NCBI RefSeq assembly: GCF_030295405.1
Contig: NZ_AP027080.1
Coordinates: forward strand, 3,704,001 to 3,768,000
DNA: 64,000 bases
Origin: Mesoterricola silvestris
Lineage (GTDB): Bacteria > Acidobacteriota > Holophagae > Holophagales > Holophagaceae
Direction of reading: 5' to 3'
The position numbers were made by a program, and so were the translations under genes. The notes under the pieces were generated by a model that saw nothing but the letters and a program-made list of their open reading frames with translations, made no database searches and had not been told where the DNA came from. This document shows, piece after piece, positions 17,626 to 56,759 of the stretch (its first letter is position 1; each line of letters begins with the position of its first letter).

Positions 17626-18768
17626 CTAGCGCGCGGCGGACCGCAGGGCGTCCGCCTTGTCGGTGCGCTCCCAGCTGAAGCCGTCCCGGCCGAAGTGACC
17701 GTAGGCGGCGGTGGGGAGGTAGATGGGCCGGCGCAGGTCCAGGGTCTCGATCATGGCCTTGGGGGTGCAGCTGAAGACCTCCCGCACGGCCCGGACGATG
17801 GCGGCGTCGCTCACCGTCCCCGTGCCGTAGGTCTCCACGGCGATGGACACCGGCTCTGCCACGCCGATGGCGTAGGCCAGCTGGATCTCGCAGGTGCGGG
17901 CCAGGCCCGCGGCGACGATGTTCTTGGCGATGTACCGTCCCATGTAGGCCGCGGACCGGTCCACCTTGGAGGGATCCTTGCCGGAGAAGGCGCCGCCGCC
18001 GTGGTGGCCGCTGCCCCCGTACGAATCCACGATGATCTTGCGGCCCGTGAGCCCCGTGTCGCCCATGGGGCCGCCGATGACGAAACGGCCGGTGGGGTTC
18101 ACGTGGTAGATCGTGTCCGCGTCCAGGTACTGGGCGGGGAGGGCGGCCTGGATGACCTCCTTGATGATCCGCTCCCGGATCTCCTTGTTCCCCGCGGATT
18201 CCGCGTGCTGGGTGGAGATGACGACCGTGTGGATGCGGGCCACGCTGCGCCCGTCGTACTCCACGGTCACCTGGGACTTGCCGTCGGGCTGGAGCCAGGG
18301 GATCTGCTGGCTCTTGCGGACCTCGGCGAGGCGGCGGGTCAGGGCATGGGCGAAGTGGATGGGGGCCGGCATGAGTTCCGGCGTCTCGTCCGTGGCGTAG
18401 CCGAACATGAGGCCCTGGTCCCCGGCCCCCCCCGCGTCCACGCCCATGGCGATGTCCGGGCTCTGCTGGTCGAGGGTGACCATGACAGCGCAGGTGTTGC
18501 AGTCGAAGCCCTTGATGCTGTGGTCGTAGCCGATGCCCTTCACCGTGTCCCGGGCCAGCTGCGCCACCGGGATGTAGCACTCGGTGGTGATCTCCCCGGC
18601 CACCAGGATCAACCCGGTGGTGACCAGGGTCTCGCAGGCCACGCGGCTGCGGGGGTCCCCCCGCAGGGCGGCGTCCAGCACCGCGTCGGAAATCTGGTCG
18701 GCGATCTTGTCGGGATGGCCTTCCGTGACGCTTTCGGATGTGAAAAGGGCCCTGGAATCAGCTGACAT
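17626..18768 (-). CDS. metK: S-adenosylmethionine synthetase
   Basis: Forms S-adenosylmethionine from methionine and ATP. The 380-residue length is normal. The family signatures are clear: [20 protein letters not shown] near the N-terminus, the [12 protein letters not shown] loop, [20 protein letters not shown], and the P-loop-like [22 protein letters not shown] at 18766-18768 is preceded by GGAGGCG; an upstream in-frame start at 18840 would run into the opposite promoter region. It supplies the methyl donor for CheR and RsmE in this window. No riboswitch could be recognised in the ~130 bases upstream. Confidence 0.96.
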
Positions 18769-18897
18769 GACGCCTCCGCCGCGATGGGAGAATAATGCTA
18801 CCAGCAAACGGCGGGGCCCCTTCCTTGCCACCCGGACCAAGGCTGGCTATTCTGACGGGGCTAACCCACCCCCCGGCAACTCAACCATGGAGCTTTT

Positions 18898-20037
18898 ATG
18901 AACGCCTCTCGAATAGCACGTTTCCTGTTCGGAGCCCTGGCCGTCGCCATGCTGACGGTATCCCCTGCGTGCAAGAAGACGGGCGAGGACAAGGAGATCA
19001 ACGAACTCTCCCAGAAGGCCGCGGAACTGGACAAGATGAGCCAGAAGGCCAACGTGGCGGGCTCGGAGCAGACCCGAAACCTGAAGGCCGCCGGCGTCAA
19101 CGATATCCGCCCCAACGCCGAGACCCTCCAGCTGACGCCCGAGCAGAAGAGCGCCCTGGAAGAGCGCATCAAGGCCGAGAAGAACAGCTCGTACCAGGCC
19201 CTGCTCCAGGAGGTCCTGGACAAGGACAAGGAGATCAAGGACCTCAACGAGAAGATCGCCAAGCTCCGGTCCGTGCTGCCCAAGCCCGATATCGCCAAGG
19301 CCAACGACAGCCATTACGGCATGGCCATGCGCTTCCTCAAGCGCAAGGGCGTGAGCGAGGAGAAGGCCAAACAGCTCATCAGCCGCGTGCTGATCATGGA
19401 CAAGATGGCCGCCGGCTTCGAGGTCTACCACTTCTATAACAATGGCGTCTACGGCAGCTGGGTCTCCCAGGGCAAGGCCCACATCTCCCCCACCGAGCTG
19501 CAGGCCGAGGAGAAGGCCAAGATCGAAGGCGAGCGCGACGTGGCCCAGGCCGATTCCGCCAAGAAGACCGAGGAACTCACGGACCTCTCCGCCCAGAAGG
19601 CGAAGCTCCTGGCCGACATCGAGGGCCTCCAGGGCGAGAAGACCAAGATGATCAAGGAGCTGGAGAGCCTGAACAGCAGCAACGAAGCCGCCAAGGCCAA
19701 GCTCAATTCCCTCCACTACGTGGTGGGCGACCGCAAGGCCCTGGAAAAGGACGGCGTCGTGGTGGTTCCCATCTTCGCCAAGGACCGCGCCGGCTCCAAC
19801 TGGGCCGACGGCGTGTTCACCAAGTCCCTGGACCTGCGCTCCACCGACACCATCACCATCACGGCCGCCGAAGTGGGCCTGAAGAAGATCGGCAAGGTCA
19901 GCGTCATCCCCGGCTCCATCGAGCGCGACAAGCACTTCACCCTCACCATCGCCGAGGACAAGTCCACCGCGGTCATCAAGCTCATCAACAAGGAACGCTT
20001 CAAGAACGAGAAGGTCGTCTTCGCCGTCACCGACTAG
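18898..20037 (+). CDS. coiled-coil lipoprotein of unknown function
   Basis: A 379-residue exported protein with a signal peptide and lipobox (ALAVAMLTVSPACKK, Cys25). A long charged helical region (about residues 30-110 and 200-260, e.g. EEKAKIEGERDVAQADSAKK) is likely coiled coil; the C-terminal ~110 residues are beta-rich (VVGDRKALEKDGVVVVPIF, TITITAAEVGLKKIGKVSV, KHFTLTIAEDKSTAVIKL). I do not recognise the family. The central LKRKGVSEEKAKQL segment may be a small helical domain. It is divergently oriented to metK and followed by a clear terminator. Confidence 0.85.
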   Translation: MNASRIARFLFGALAVAMLTVSPACKKTGEDKEINELSQKAAELDKMSQKANVAGSEQTRNLKAAGVNDIRPNAETLQLTPEQKSALEERIKAEKNSSYQALLQEVLDKDKEIKDLNEKIAKLRSVLPKPDIAKANDSHYGMAMRFLKRKGVSEEKAKQLISRVLIMDKMAAGFEVYHFYNNGVYGSWVSQGKAHISPTELQAEEKAKIEGERDVAQADSAKKTEELTDLSAQKAKLLADIEGLQGEKTKMIKELESLNSSNEAAKAKLNSLHYVVGDRKALEKDGVVVVPIFAKDRAGSNWADGVFTKSLDLRSTDTITITAAEVGLKKIGKVSVIPGSIERDKHFTLTIAEDKSTAVIKLINKERFKNEKVVFAVTD

Positions 20038-20060
20038 GACGCGCCGCCTTCCATGGAACG

Positions 20061-20080
20061 GCCCCCGCGAGGGGGCTTTT
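20061..20080 (+). terminator. rho-independent terminator
   Basis: GCCCCC at 20061-20066, loop GCGA, GGGGGC at 20071-20076 and a TTTT run. It lies 23 bases after the stop of the coiled-coil lipoprotein gene and is a compact, convincing hairpin. Confidence 0.75.
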
Positions 20081-20087
20081 CCATGGT

Positions 20088-20576
20088 CGGGACCTCGGCC
20101 CCCTCGGGCCTGCCCTGCCGGGGGCTGCGGGTTTGGGCGGGGTTGTTCCGGGGGGAAGGGGCGGCCCATGGGGTCCCGATCCGGCGCGCCGACTCAACGG
20201 TAGCGCTCGCACAGCAGCAAGCTGCTGTGCGAGCGCTGGCCGTTGTCCATGGGGAGAGGTGAATGCGGGAGGGGGGCGCGCGCCTTTGGCAACCGGGCCA
20301 GGATGCTTCGACCTGGCAGCCGAGTGCTTTTGCCGAGACTCCCCATCCGCCTCCGGGGCCCACCATCCTGGCAGGCAGGGTCAAGGTTCCCCCCCCTGAC
20401 TCCACCACCTGAATCCATTGGATAACGGGCAGCGCTCGCACAGCAGCTTGCTGCTGTGCGAGCGCTACCGTTGAGTCGGCGCGCCGGATCGGGACCGCAT
20501 GGGCCGACCCCTCCCATGGGAACCTCGCCGTCGAAACACGCAGCCCCCGGCAGGGCATGCCTGGGCCGACCGAACC
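20088..20576. repeat. large inverted repeat with two 36-base palindromes
   Basis: The left arm (about 20088-20252) and right arm (about 20416-20576) are inverted copies, with long identical blocks such as GGTCCCGATCCGGCGCGCC and CTGCCGGGGGCTGCG. Each arm carries a nearly perfect palindrome: 20202-20237 and 20431-20466, both with 17-base arms AGCGCTCGCACAGCAGC around a two-base loop (AA or TT). The ~160-base centre is unrelated. No credible gene occupies 20038-20703. It could be a pair of diverged intergenic repeat units inserted tail to tail. Confidence 0.8.
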
Positions 20577-20703
20577 ATCCAAACCTCCGGCTCCCCCCCC
20601 TCGGCATGCCGCCCCCCCATCCAATTTTCCCGGCCCCGACGCCTAGGTTTTTTCCGGGCGGTGGGTATACTCGGATTGGTAAACCCAAGAAATGGAGGAT
20701 CCC

Positions 20704-21456
20704 GTGGTGACACGTCGAATGTTCGCGCTTTGCGCACTTTGCCTGCTCGCCTTGGCGCCCGCGGTTGCGGTGGTGCCCAAGAAGGACCGGCCCCGCGTCA
20801 TCGTCGCCCCCTTCCCCGTGGCCAAGGGCGCCTATGAGGGTTGGGGGGGCTGGGGTTACGGTTATGTCGGGGGGGAGACGCGCATCAGCGACGTGCTCCA
20901 GGATCTGTGCGTCACGACCCTCATCGAGGAGGGGAGCGACAAGGTGCGGGTCATGGACCGGACGCGCCTGGACGAGGTGCTGGCCGAGCAGAAGCTGAAC
21001 GCCAGCGGCCTGGTGGAGGAATCGGACGATCCCGCCGACCAGAAGAAGGTCGCCAAGATGGGCAAGCTCCTGGGCGTGCGCTGGATGATCACGGGCAAGG
21101 TGACGCGCTTCGCCTACAAGAAGAGCGGATTCGGCACCGGCTGGGCCGCGGGCGCCCTGGTGAGCAAGCTCACCGGCAGCGGCATCGCCGGGGGCGTGGC
21201 CGGCGACATCCACGTGCAGAAGGCCACCCTCACCGGCCGCCTGGATATGAAGCTCATCGACGTGCAGACCGCCGAGATCGTGGCCGTGGCCCACGACGAA
21301 TCCACCGTCAAGGACATGGGCGTCAAGGTCGCCGGCACCGGCAACCAGCTCCAGTTCGACCAGACCATGGTCAACCAGATCTTCGAGCCCATCATCCAGA
21401 AGCTGGCCAAACAAATGCTGAAAAAGATCACGGTCGCCCAGGCGGACGCGGACTGA
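20704..21456 (+). CDS. CsgG-family exported protein
   Basis: A 250-residue protein with a signal peptide (MFALCALCLLALAPAVA-V). The mature chain matches the CsgG-like family, which forms or supports outer-membrane secretion channels and related lipoproteins: RPRVIVAPF near the N-terminus, then ISDVLQDLCVTTLIEEGSDKVRVMDRTRLDEVLAEQKL, GKLLGVRWMITGKVTRF and a C-terminal amphipathic helix. GGAGG at 20694-20698 is five bases before GTG 20704, favouring it (or GTG 20707) over the ATG at 20692. There is no lipobox, unlike true CsgG, so it is a family member and not a curli protein for certain. Confidence 0.82.
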   Translation: MVTRRMFALCALCLLALAPAVAVVPKKDRPRVIVAPFPVAKGAYEGWGGWGYGYVGGETRISDVLQDLCVTTLIEEGSDKVRVMDRTRLDEVLAEQKLNASGLVEESDDPADQKKVAKMGKLLGVRWMITGKVTRFAYKKSGFGTGWAAGALVSKLTGSGIAGGVAGDIHVQKATLTGRLDMKLIDVQTAEIVAVAHDESTVKDMGVKVAGTGNQLQFDQTMVNQIFEPIIQKLAKQMLKKITVAQADAD

Positions 21457-21484
21457 AGGGGGACGCGCCGGTTCTGACGGGCGC

Positions 21485-21676
21485 CAGGGATTCCTTGACG
21501 CAGGCAAGCTGCGTCAAGGGAGGGATTGCGTCGTTGGATGTGGGAACGTGTTCGCACGCTCCGGCTTCGATGGAGGCCGGGTGGATGCGGGAAGAGCGGG
21601 GCTCCCCGGGGGGGCCTGGGGGGTTTAGGTACGCTTCAAGTGTTCCGGCGTGGAAGGGGCACGCGCCGACGTTGAT
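21485..21676. repeat. diverged intergenic repeat, copy 1
   Basis: This copy contains the hairpin CCTTGACGCAG-GCAAG-CTGCGTCAAGG (21493-21519), the block CGCACGCTCCGGCTTC, GGGGCTCCCCGGG and GCGCCGACGTTGA, all found in the same order but in inverted orientation at 22391-22579. It lies in a 468-base gene-free interval after the CsgG-like gene. Confidence 0.65.
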
Positions 21677-21720
21677 TTGTCGGGGGGTATCGATCCGGTG
21701 CGCGATGTCGCTTGAACCGA

Positions 21721-21900
21721 TCAGCGTCGGCGGGGATCCCGTTCCGCCCGGATCCACTCGAAGCGTGGCCCTGAAGTCCCAGGCCCACCGGAAGGGCTCG
21801 ATGATCCCCAGTCCCAACCCTTGGGGGAATCCGGAAGGTGCAACCCGACCCTATCGTCCCCTCCCGAATCCAACGAGGCCGGCTTGTCCGGCCGAGTAAC
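21721..21900. repeat. possible third copy of the diverged intergenic repeat
   Basis: TCAGCGTCGGCG at the start, ACTCGAAGCGTGGCC and AGGCCCACCGG follow in the same order as TCAGCGTCGGCG, ACTCGCAGCGTGCCC and AGGCCCACCCGG in the 22391 copy, in the same orientation. The remainder does not align by eye. It fills the gap before the YvlD-like gene. Confidence 0.45.
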
Positions 21901-21924
21901 CGGGGCGGAAGTCCGGGACACGTT

Positions 21925-22326
21925 CTAATTGATGATTTTGATGCGCCTGGGACCTTCCGGGCGGCCCTTGTCTTCCTTGCCGATGAGGACGGTCTCCAGG
22001 ACGGTGGCGCAGATGCTGGAGACCAGGGCCCCGAAGAAGCCCGCCCAGAATCCCGAAACCCGGAAATCCAGGCCCAGGCCCGTGGCCACCCAGCTCGCGG
22101 CCCAGAACACCAGCCCGTTGATGAAGAGCCCCAGGCAGCCCAGGCTGCACGCCAGCGGCACGAAGGCCACGAACCGCAGCAGCATCCCCAGCGTCGCGTT
22201 CAACGCCCCCAGGATGACCGCCACCGCCACCAGGTCGATGAAGGCCCCGTGATGGATCCCCCTCACGAAGTACGATGCGACGAGCAACCCCACCGCCGAA
22301 AACAGGAATCGAAGCAACGTCCTCAC
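21925..22326 (-). CDS. YvlD/phage-holin-4-like four-helix membrane protein
   Basis: A 133-residue membrane protein of the family annotated as phage holin family 4 / YvlD. Four hydrophobic segments are visible (LLRFLFSAVGLLVASYFV; FIDLVAVAVILGALNATLGMLL; LACSLGCLGLFINGLVFWAASW; FWAGFFGALVSSICATVLETVL), with the family pattern of Asn in ALNAT and LFINGLVFW. The C-terminus is a basic tail GKEDKGRPEGPRRIK. Members are widespread in bacterial chromosomes and are not evidence for a prophage. It is flanked on both sides by related inverted repeats. Confidence 0.85.
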   Translation of the reverse strand: MRTLLRFLFSAVGLLVASYFVRGIHHGAFIDLVAVAVILGALNATLGMLLRFVAFVPLACSLGCLGLFINGLVFWAASWVATGLGLDFRVSGFWAGFFGALVSSICATVLETVLIGKEDKGRPEGPRRIKIIN

Positions 22327-22390
22327 AAGCCGTCTCCTCCCCCCATTCTATCCTTACCCCACGCCGGAGATGGCGAGCCACCCAAACCAG

Positions 22391-22579
22391 TCAGCGTCGG
22401 CGCCCCCACACATCCATCCCCCACGACTCGCAGCGTGCCCCCCCGACCCTAGGCCCACCCGGGGAGCCCACCGCCCACCCACACCTCTTCCTCCCCCGAA
22501 GCCGGAGCGTGCCAACACCCCCGCCCCCCTCGTGCCGGGCTATCCGCTGACGCAGCTTGCCTGCGTCAGCGAATCCCTG
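22391..22579. repeat. diverged intergenic repeat, copy 3 (inverted relative to copy 1)
   Basis: The reverse complement of this stretch aligns with 21485-21676: it carries the hairpin CGCTGACGCAG-CTTGC-CTGCGTCAGCG (22545-22571), GAAGCCGGAGCGTG and CCCGGGGAGCCC. It lies between the YvlD-like gene and the LPP20-type gene. Confidence 0.65.
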
Positions 22580-22605
22580 ACGCAGGTCCGGAACCCGTAC
22601 TCCCC

Positions 22606-23217
22606 CTAATGCTGGTTGGGTTCGCTAGCCGCGATGGCCGCGTCCAGCTTGTCCAGCGCCGCGTTGAGGCTCTGCTCGCCCTGGGCGATCTCCTTGCGGA
22701 TCTGGCTCTGGGCCGCGCCGGCCAGGGCGCGGTCCATGGTCTCCTTGGTCATGACCACGAAGACGTAGAGGTTGCCGTCGGAGGGGTCGTTCCAGTAGTT
22801 GCGGGTGGTGGTGCCGGCGAGTTCCTGGTCCACCAGCTGGCGGGTGACGTTCTCGATGACCCGGTTCATGACGTCGGTCTTGATGGGCTTCTTGGTGTTG
22901 TCGGCCGCGGCGGTGGTGACCTGCTGGTTGAGCTGGCTGAACATGTTCTGCACGCGGACCTTGAGCTTCCCGGCCAGCTTGGTGCGGGCGTCGGCGACGG
23001 CCACGGTGCGCATCATGGACTTGTCGCCCATGGGATTGGGCTGGGCGATGCCCACGGCGGCGAGGCCGTCGGGGATCTCCTCGTTGTCGATCCAGCTGGG
23101 GGCGTTCTTGGTCTGGGTGGTGGTCACGGGCACCTTGTTGGGTTCGGTCTTGGGGCCGCCGCAGGCCACCAGGCCGGCCATGGCCAGGCCCACGGGGAGG
23201 TATCGGGAAAGACGCAT
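22606..23217 (-). CDS. LPP20-family lipoprotein
   Basis: A 203-residue lipoprotein: MRLSRYLPVGLAMAGLVACGG has a lipobox LVAC. The mature part follows the LPP20/FlgP-like pattern: NAPSWIDNEEIPDGLAAVGIAQ, then ADARTKLAGKLKVRVQNMF and a C-terminal YVFVVMTKETMDRAL region, as in Helicobacter-type LPP20 and related outer-membrane proteins. AAGGAG lies just upstream of the ATG at 23215-23217. It is divergent to the gene at 23412, which has a related N-terminal arrangement, so the pair may act together in the outer membrane. Confidence 0.85.
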   Translation of the reverse strand: MRLSRYLPVGLAMAGLVACGGPKTEPNKVPVTTTQTKNAPSWIDNEEIPDGLAAVGIAQPNPMGDKSMMRTVAVADARTKLAGKLKVRVQNMFSQLNQQVTTAAADNTKKPIKTDVMNRVIENVTRQLVDQELAGTTTRNYWNDPSDGNLYVFVVMTKETMDRALAGAAQSQIRKEIAQGEQSLNAALDKLDAAIAASEPNQH

Positions 23218-37975: not shown

Positions 37976-38122
37976 TTCATCCCCTCCATCGGCGTTCATC
38001 CCCGTTACCCAGGGCCAAGGCTTGGTTGGGTAGGCCCATGCGGGTAATGCGCGCGCCGACCCAACCCATCGCCGGCCCTGCGGAACAGGGATGAAAACGA
38101 TGAAAAGGATGAACAGGATGGG
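37976..38122. repeat. long-hairpin dispersed repeat, copy B
   Basis: About 147 bases nearly matching the copy at 56621 over the whole length. Inner arms 37995-38016 and 38074-38095 pair at 19 of 22 positions, and TTGGGT/ACCCAA pairs inside. The core GGGTAATGCGCGCGCCGACC is shared with copy C except for small changes. The interval 37886-38180 otherwise holds no gene. Confidence 0.8.
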
Positions 38123-56620: not shown

Positions 56621-56759
56621 TTCATCCCAGACATCACTGTTCATCCCTGTTCCGCAGGGCCAAGGCTTGGATGGGTCGGCGAATGTGGGTAATGCGCGCG
56701 CCGACCCGACCCATCGCGGGCCCTGCGTAACAGGGATGAACAGTGATGCCTGGGATGAA
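56621..56759. repeat. long-hairpin dispersed repeat, copy C
   Basis: Arms 56621-56661 and 56719-56759 are inverted copies at 39 of 41 positions (TTCATCCCAGACATCACTGT and the rest of the arm). Inside, ATGGGTCGG pairs with CCGACCCAT, so the unit can form one ~139-base hairpin. It resembles copy B at 37976 closely and copy A weakly. No gene lies in 56489-56828. Confidence 0.85.

Follow-up and report, generated by a model that had tools for sequence, protein, structure and literature searches.

The element at positions 20087–20584 of the window (the whole stretch of 64,000 nucleotides that was analysed) is probably one copy of a genus-restricted, non-autonomous family of mobile DNA that is moved in trans, as judged from comparison of sequences. 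Movement was never observed; we infer it from genome comparison, since copies are absent at the matching sites of a close relative. The family seems to be undescribed, in that nothing in the literature searched was recognised as the same family, and it adds to the repeats of the Acidobacteriota one with recent presence/absence differences and with hairpins that vary while still matching. To our knowledge, mirror-paired hairpin repeats have been studied mainly through RAYTs, and the family, with closely related genomes that have and lack it, could provide a second setting for testing how such repeats arise and move.

The window element and its family

The window copy sits in a tandem gap, between a gene without a Pfam match (18949–20037, + strand, as delimited by the gene caller; the mechanical open reading frame starts at 18898) and an open reading frame with a CsgG domain (20692–21456, + strand; open reading frame list and Pfam). 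The terminator-like hairpin of the upstream gene (20051–20086, + strand) is also present at the empty sites of two relatives, G004 and G005, and belongs to the flanking DNA outside the element. Homology of the left flank with these empty sites stops at 20086, which places the start of the element at about 20087. The right end was put by eye at about 20584, from symmetry with the left end motif, and 20585–20611 are left unassigned. The original prediction of a large inverted repeat with twin 36-base palindromes at 20088–20576 was therefore nearly exact in its range.

The inverted repeat itself is real. A repeat search recovered arms at 20095–20249 and 20419–20573, 155 nt long and 87% complementary, with 169 nt between them (the spacer, 20250–20418), and in each arm a perfect hairpin of 36 nt with 17 pairs and a 2 nt loop. 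The arms, the fold and the flank homology together describe the whole element as two mirror-image units round the spacer; neither the element nor the spacer is assigned a strand. The left unit (+ strand) begins with a conserved outer part (20087–20201; model match 20104–20201), which in the unit alignment consists of a weak end motif and then CCCTGCCGGGGGC ... GTTCC ... GCGCCGAC, and continues with the hairpin (20202–20237) and the inner end of the arm (20238–20249), which reads GGCCGTTGTCCA where the usual form in the family is TTGCCGT.ATCCATTG. The right unit (− strand) comprises the inner end (20419–20430), a hairpin with the identical 36 nt palindrome (20431–20466) and the conserved outer part (20467–20584; model match 20467–20564, extended by the outer motif). 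Folded as single-stranded DNA, positions 20087–20580 give a predicted energy of −231 kcal/mol, compared with −122 kcal/mol (s.d. 4.9) for 100 dinucleotide-preserving shuffles of the same stretch (z = −22). No gene was called inside the element by a codon-usage gene caller, the open reading frames listed there being mechanical, and the earlier description of a structure that is bigger than a terminator and free of genes is thus borne out.

A paralogue of the upstream gene, 74% identical in its DNA, lies at 1894559–1895606 of the carrier genome (G000; 4,994,678 bases). For the flanking gene, 31 loci were found in genome_contigs. Most are labelled Holophagaceae, Geothrix or Holophaga, besides one Deltaproteobacteria and a few Acidobacteria, and the best match, at 93% identity, comes from DBMS01000265.1 (Holophagaceae bacterium UBA692).

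As a DNA query, the region of the element gave 96 matches in G000. We aligned 63 units and built a covariance model (R1) from 47. The model finds at least 83 units in G000 at E ≤ 0.01, a lower bound since scoring covered 150 of the 11,645 first-look candidates. With a profile of the outer part, 82 units are found at 48 sites in the G000 stretches read and, counting the sites at 4340161 and 4596702 from the R1 search, the genome holds about 50 sites. The inverted repeat is therefore not an isolated single occurrence; it belongs to a non-coding repeat that is scattered through the genome and missing from matching sites of relatives, as the suggestion of a repeated unit had it.

A typical copy consists of two units of about 140 nt that face each other. 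From the outside inwards, each unit has a weak end around TTGGAC.TTCCGG (about 24 nt), then a conserved outer part of about 100 nt, a hairpin and the tail TTGCCGT.ATCCATTG. Head-to-head pairs are present at 31 of the 48 sites read in G000 (the pair at 1602161 is weak), and 37 pairs were found over all genomes (31 in G000, five in G005 and one in G002). By eye, at least one single site, at 1529691, resembles a pair with one decayed arm. Measured between model ends in 23 pairs, the element is 327–528 nt long and its spacer varies from 67 to 336 nt, the figures for the second hairpin type including the hairpins. Separately, a degenerate outer part with the end motif lies at 2813680–2813757 of G000 (L032) without a recognised unit.

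No match to the element was found in a plasmid collection in distant DNA mode. The type-I hairpin pattern was absent from genome_contigs and viral_contigs in its exact form, although close relatives may be lacking from these collections. Rfam gave no match at the gathering score: the element reached 34 bits with mir-H11 (cutoff 70) and 22 with MIR2950 (cutoff 76), and elsewhere in 18000–23000 DUF3800-XI scored 18.7, below the cutoff of 37.8.

Hairpins with variable letters and matching sides

Among the matches listed, the hairpins take the form AGCGC..CAGCAGC-GCTGCTG..GCGCT, the TCGCAGGC form or a bulged form around CCAGTCCTCGC..GCTGCGGGCTGG; the stem in G003 has only its tip in common with the bulged form. 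A search for the palindrome of the window element upheld the hairpin in both arms. As a literal sequence, however, the 36-mer is not a mark of the family, since among the 98 units tested it occurs solely in the two arms of the window element and other copies carry other stems. The foot of the hairpin also varies (GTAG, GGAG, TGAG, TGGC and TACC), with GTAG preceding many of the type-I hairpins.

The two sides of a stem stay matched while the letters vary. This was assessed without any selection of hairpins in 98 units, after six of the 104 had been excluded because they were truncated or contained Ns. On average, the left side scored 10.5 against its own right side and 6.4 against the right sides of other sites; relative to the median of those others, the own-side score was higher in 76 of the 98 units, equal in 15 and lower in seven. 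The mean was reached by none of 2000 permutations, and again by none of 2000 with the 65 distinct left sides. Many of the stems are modest or bulged, as just 13 of the 98 hairpins had a gapped score higher than that of any of 500 random stretches. By an ungapped palindrome score, 61 of the 98 lay above the 95th percentile of 300 random stretches and 51 above their maximum.

Two-sided changes were counted in the 42 units whose hairpins leave no more than two positions unpaired (four lengths, with 17, 8, 13 and 4 units), and the paired percentages from this count are biased upwards because the hairpins were preselected for pairing. In the 13 distinct hairpins of 36 nt, 17 cells were changed on both sides, compared with 4.5 after shuffling, and none of 500 shuffles was equally paired. 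Equal pairing was reached in two of 500 shuffles for the nine distinct hairpins of 30 nt, in 36 of 500 for the four of 29 nt and in 161 of 500 for the three of 27 nt, the last two sets being unconvincing alone. RNA covariation in the outer part is nearly nil: RNAalifold predicts seven pairs, one of which is changed on both sides, and a consensus RNA structure of this part is unsupported.

Presence and absence in relatives

In G004, both flanks of the window element have matches (94 and 92% identical) that lie 30 nt apart, compared with 565 nt in G000. In G005 the flanks are separated by 23 nt and the element is absent; in G001 both flanks are likewise present without it. Both flanks were found in the G004 stretches for 11 of the 48 sites (the other 37 are not comparable), and the element is absent at all 11. 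At five of these sites the flank matches are at most 30 nt apart in G004. At the other six they are separated by 85–807 nt of other DNA, and those insertions are not clean. One of these six, at 474919, has a loose right flank in G004, with a match that starts 1461 nt away. Units at E ≤ 1 were not detected by nhmmer in the 749,502 bases of G004 read, nor did R1 find a unit in the whole of G001 or G004, with 81 candidates scored in each.

A search of 77 genomes of the taxonomic family, including the carrier's own, with stricter filters and 43 candidates scored in each, gave hits in four genomes of one genus: G000, G005 (13), G002 (five) and G003 (one). In a search of 41 relatives the hits numbered 13 in G005, six in G002 and three in G003. 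Of the 22 hits in these three drafts, eight have a contig end no more than 300 nt away; the repeat family may thus break draft assemblies.

Two copies in G005 occupy places common with G000: 4135064 (both flanks) and 478772 (one flank; the G005 contig ends). At both places G005 has one unit, the outer parts of which still align with G000 while the hairpins differ. It is possible that these copies are independent insertions at the same place in the two genomes. Instead of having been gained in the carriers, all copies could also have been lost from G004 and G001.

Candidate movers and competing explanations

For a family moved in trans, the hairpins or the entire folded-back strand would be the structure recognised by the enzyme, which would move or copy the element as a folded strand, as has been proposed for REPINs. 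The pair would be the moving entity, single units would come from the decay of one arm, and survival behind gene ends would reflect the sparing of promoters and reading frames. No autonomous copy of the repeat family was recognised.

Among known repeats, a REPIN is formed by two REPs in inverted orientation and is proposed to be moved by a RAYT (PMC3116915); the element shares with REPINs, as described there, the mirror hairpin units round a spacer, the fold-back of the whole and the many copies, including the head-to-head pairs at the G000 sites. It differs in the size of its unit (about 140 nt with a conserved outer part of about 100 nt, compared with 20–40 bp for REP units in PMC3733652), in a hairpin sequence that varies widely, in a terminal GTAG tag that is not constant and in that no RAYT (Y1_Tnp) gene was found in G000. 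The profile search behind this last result detected Y1_Tnp in five of 14 genomes, E. coli included. At E ≤ 0.01, Y1_Tnp was not found in the carriers G000, G002 and G005 (the assemblies of G002 and G005 are 81–83% complete); it was found in G003, which carries the repeat, and in G004, which does not. A RAYT or Y1 protein is thereby ruled out as the present mover in G000, and the mover is not among the IS200/RAYT-type proteins that this genome now encodes.

Such a protein might have been lost. The family would then be the remnant of an IS200-type RAYT or TIRYT system (a REPtron or TIRtron), with hairpins that served as REP-like or TIR-like targets of the tyrosine transposase. The pairing of mirror units recalls REPINs, and the second hairpin type has bulged-T stems, which presumably resemble those of IS608. 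The variant GGAG of the REP tag also occurs at the hairpin foot. GTAG itself, which precedes many type-I hairpins, is given as the tag of REPs in PMC3733652, where TIR-associated tyrosine transposases are reported to form a sharply delimited group in Acidobacteria and a repeat family is described in Koribacter for one of three genes. The element is similar to TIRtrons, as described there, in its inverted repeats, some of them self-complementary, its dimers and its occurrence in Acidobacteria, a likeness of the TIRs that is by description only. However, neither foot is kept throughout the family, no TIRYT gene was found in G000, Y1_Tnp was not found in three of the carriers and was found in a non-carrier, and beside the eight Y1 loci read, two of them from the genus of the element, there was no unit better than E = 1.2. 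We regard this origin as unlikely.

A second alternative is retention for a function between convergent genes, as a bidirectional terminator, an insulator or a structured 3′-end RNA. According to the codon-usage gene caller, 30 of the 48 sites lie in convergent gaps, 16 in tandem gaps and two in divergent gaps, although 29 is a safer figure than 30 because the site at 1514455 was wrongly classed as convergent after the caller missed a neighbouring low-GC permease gene. The background comprised 391 gaps no shorter than 30 nt, of which 314 came from G004 and 77 from the window and control stretches of G000. Of these 391, 49 are convergent (12.5%; p = 6 × 10⁻¹⁶ for the difference) and 27.6% are divergent (p = 3 × 10⁻⁵), and the outer end faces the 3′ end of a gene in 64 of 82 units. 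This strong bias, like the matched sides of the variable stems, would suit a function at gene ends. Against it, the window copy lies between tandem genes, some copies by eye lie beyond the terminator-like hairpin of the neighbouring gene, the G004 gaps compared manage without the element, and the outer part has the single two-sided change among its predicted RNA pairs. A scan for T-run terminators found none at 19900–20800, where shuffles average 0.9, although it also missed the hairpin at 20051–20086. Taken together, these points make a retained function appear improbable.

The permease gene near the misclassified site, an 854-residue MacB_PCD/FtsX gene in a stretch where G+C is about 60% (L021:12466–16063; G000 1514465–1518063), is bracketed by two direct copies of the unit with flank, and the matching place in G004 lacks it.

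The element can also be compared with bacterial MITEs (NEMIS/Correia, RUP and ERIC), which are likewise non-coding and mobile and form a long stem-loop (PMC2229807). It is non-coding with terminal inverted repeats, its mobility being deduced from the empty sites alone; it differs from them in its length (327–528 nt compared with about 100–200 bp), in its inner hairpins and in that a search for a fixed duplication found none. As neither a mover nor a fixed duplication was found, the element is described as working like a REPIN or a MITE and is filed as neither. The Caulobacter CIR, compared by description only, is similarly intergenic with two stem-loop arms and a linker; it differs in being about 110 bp long, in occurring in α-proteobacteria and in having a GANTC site (PMC2229807).

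Derivation as a plain MITE from a DDE insertion sequence whose terminal repeats match those of the element would explain a small, non-coding, dispersed repeat with a long inverted repeat and empty sites. Over 37 pairs, however, there is no fixed target-site duplication, and the candidates of 4–5 nt seen by eye at single sites are weak and inconsistent. The internal hairpins with their matched variation would not be expected of a plain MITE, and the two DDE_Tnp_1 elements, from the only transposase family compared, lack matching ends. This origin is accordingly doubtful. As a source of the ends these two elements were ruled out, their own ends lying around TAGGGGCTGTCGGCAAACC, unlike the element. 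The end motif of the repeat had 27 hits with at most three mismatches, compared with 14 for a reversed control.

Rather improbable, in our estimation, is a new type of mover that would read the conserved outer part of about 100 nt together with the presence of a hairpin, and would also serve other inverted-repeat families bearing the word GCGCCGACCCA. Stems would then be exchangeable, since such an enzyme would need the outer part and any hairpin; signs of exchange are the several stem types at one unit position and the different stems at the two places common to G000 and G005.

Within a pair, the arms share on average 77% identity (in 35 of the 37 pairs, those with enough columns), compared with 65% for other pairs of units. 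None of 2000 permutations gave a likeness as high, and the partner was the nearest unit in 30 of 74 tests. Since identity falls below 70% in nine of the 35 pairs, the likeness holds for part of the family. In some pairs, by eye, the flanking terminator-like hairpin is also present as an inverted copy. Movement as pairs, correction between arms or both would fit these values. Expansion in place through template switching, which would turn a lone unit into a mirror pair or correct one arm against the other without movement of the pair, would account for the likeness and the inverted flanking hairpins, but it fits poorly with the divergent arms of the nine pairs and with the whole pair or unit being extra DNA at the five compared sites with at most 30 nt in G004, and we give it little credence.

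Other palindromic repeats were noted in the same genomes. A second long family, TTCATCCC...CAGGGCC...GGGTCGG / CCGACCC...GGCCCTGC...GGGATGAA, occurs in the window at 56621–56759 and near 38053, at L043:13230–13380 and L045:12596–12752, and in G004. The word GCGCCGACCCA of the arms of the element is present in the copies at L043:13230 and window 38053, and the copy at 56621 ends in CCCG there. In 164 kb made up of the window and control stretches of G000, this word occurs five times (permuted words average 0.5, maximum 4), and in 749,502 bases of G004 it occurs three times (average 2.4, maximum 17). Copies of an IS200-type Y1 transposase lie in G004 at 699313, 424350, 1080445 and 4306524, three of them with an in-frame TAG, and upstream of the G004 Y1 copy read (L165) there is a CTGTTTCAGCAGGGC hairpin like that of the second family. 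A third inverted repeat, 513 nt long and bearing the hairpins CATCGCCGG/CCGGCGATG, lies at L043:1165–1677 (G000 2301165–2301677); it has ten match places, itself included, in the G000 loci read and none in the G004 stretches. Further palindromic families are represented by the CCCAGCGCCCC type at L045:7111–7290 in G000 and by the CTCGGCGATCCTCGG type, with several copies in the G004 stretches L125–L161.
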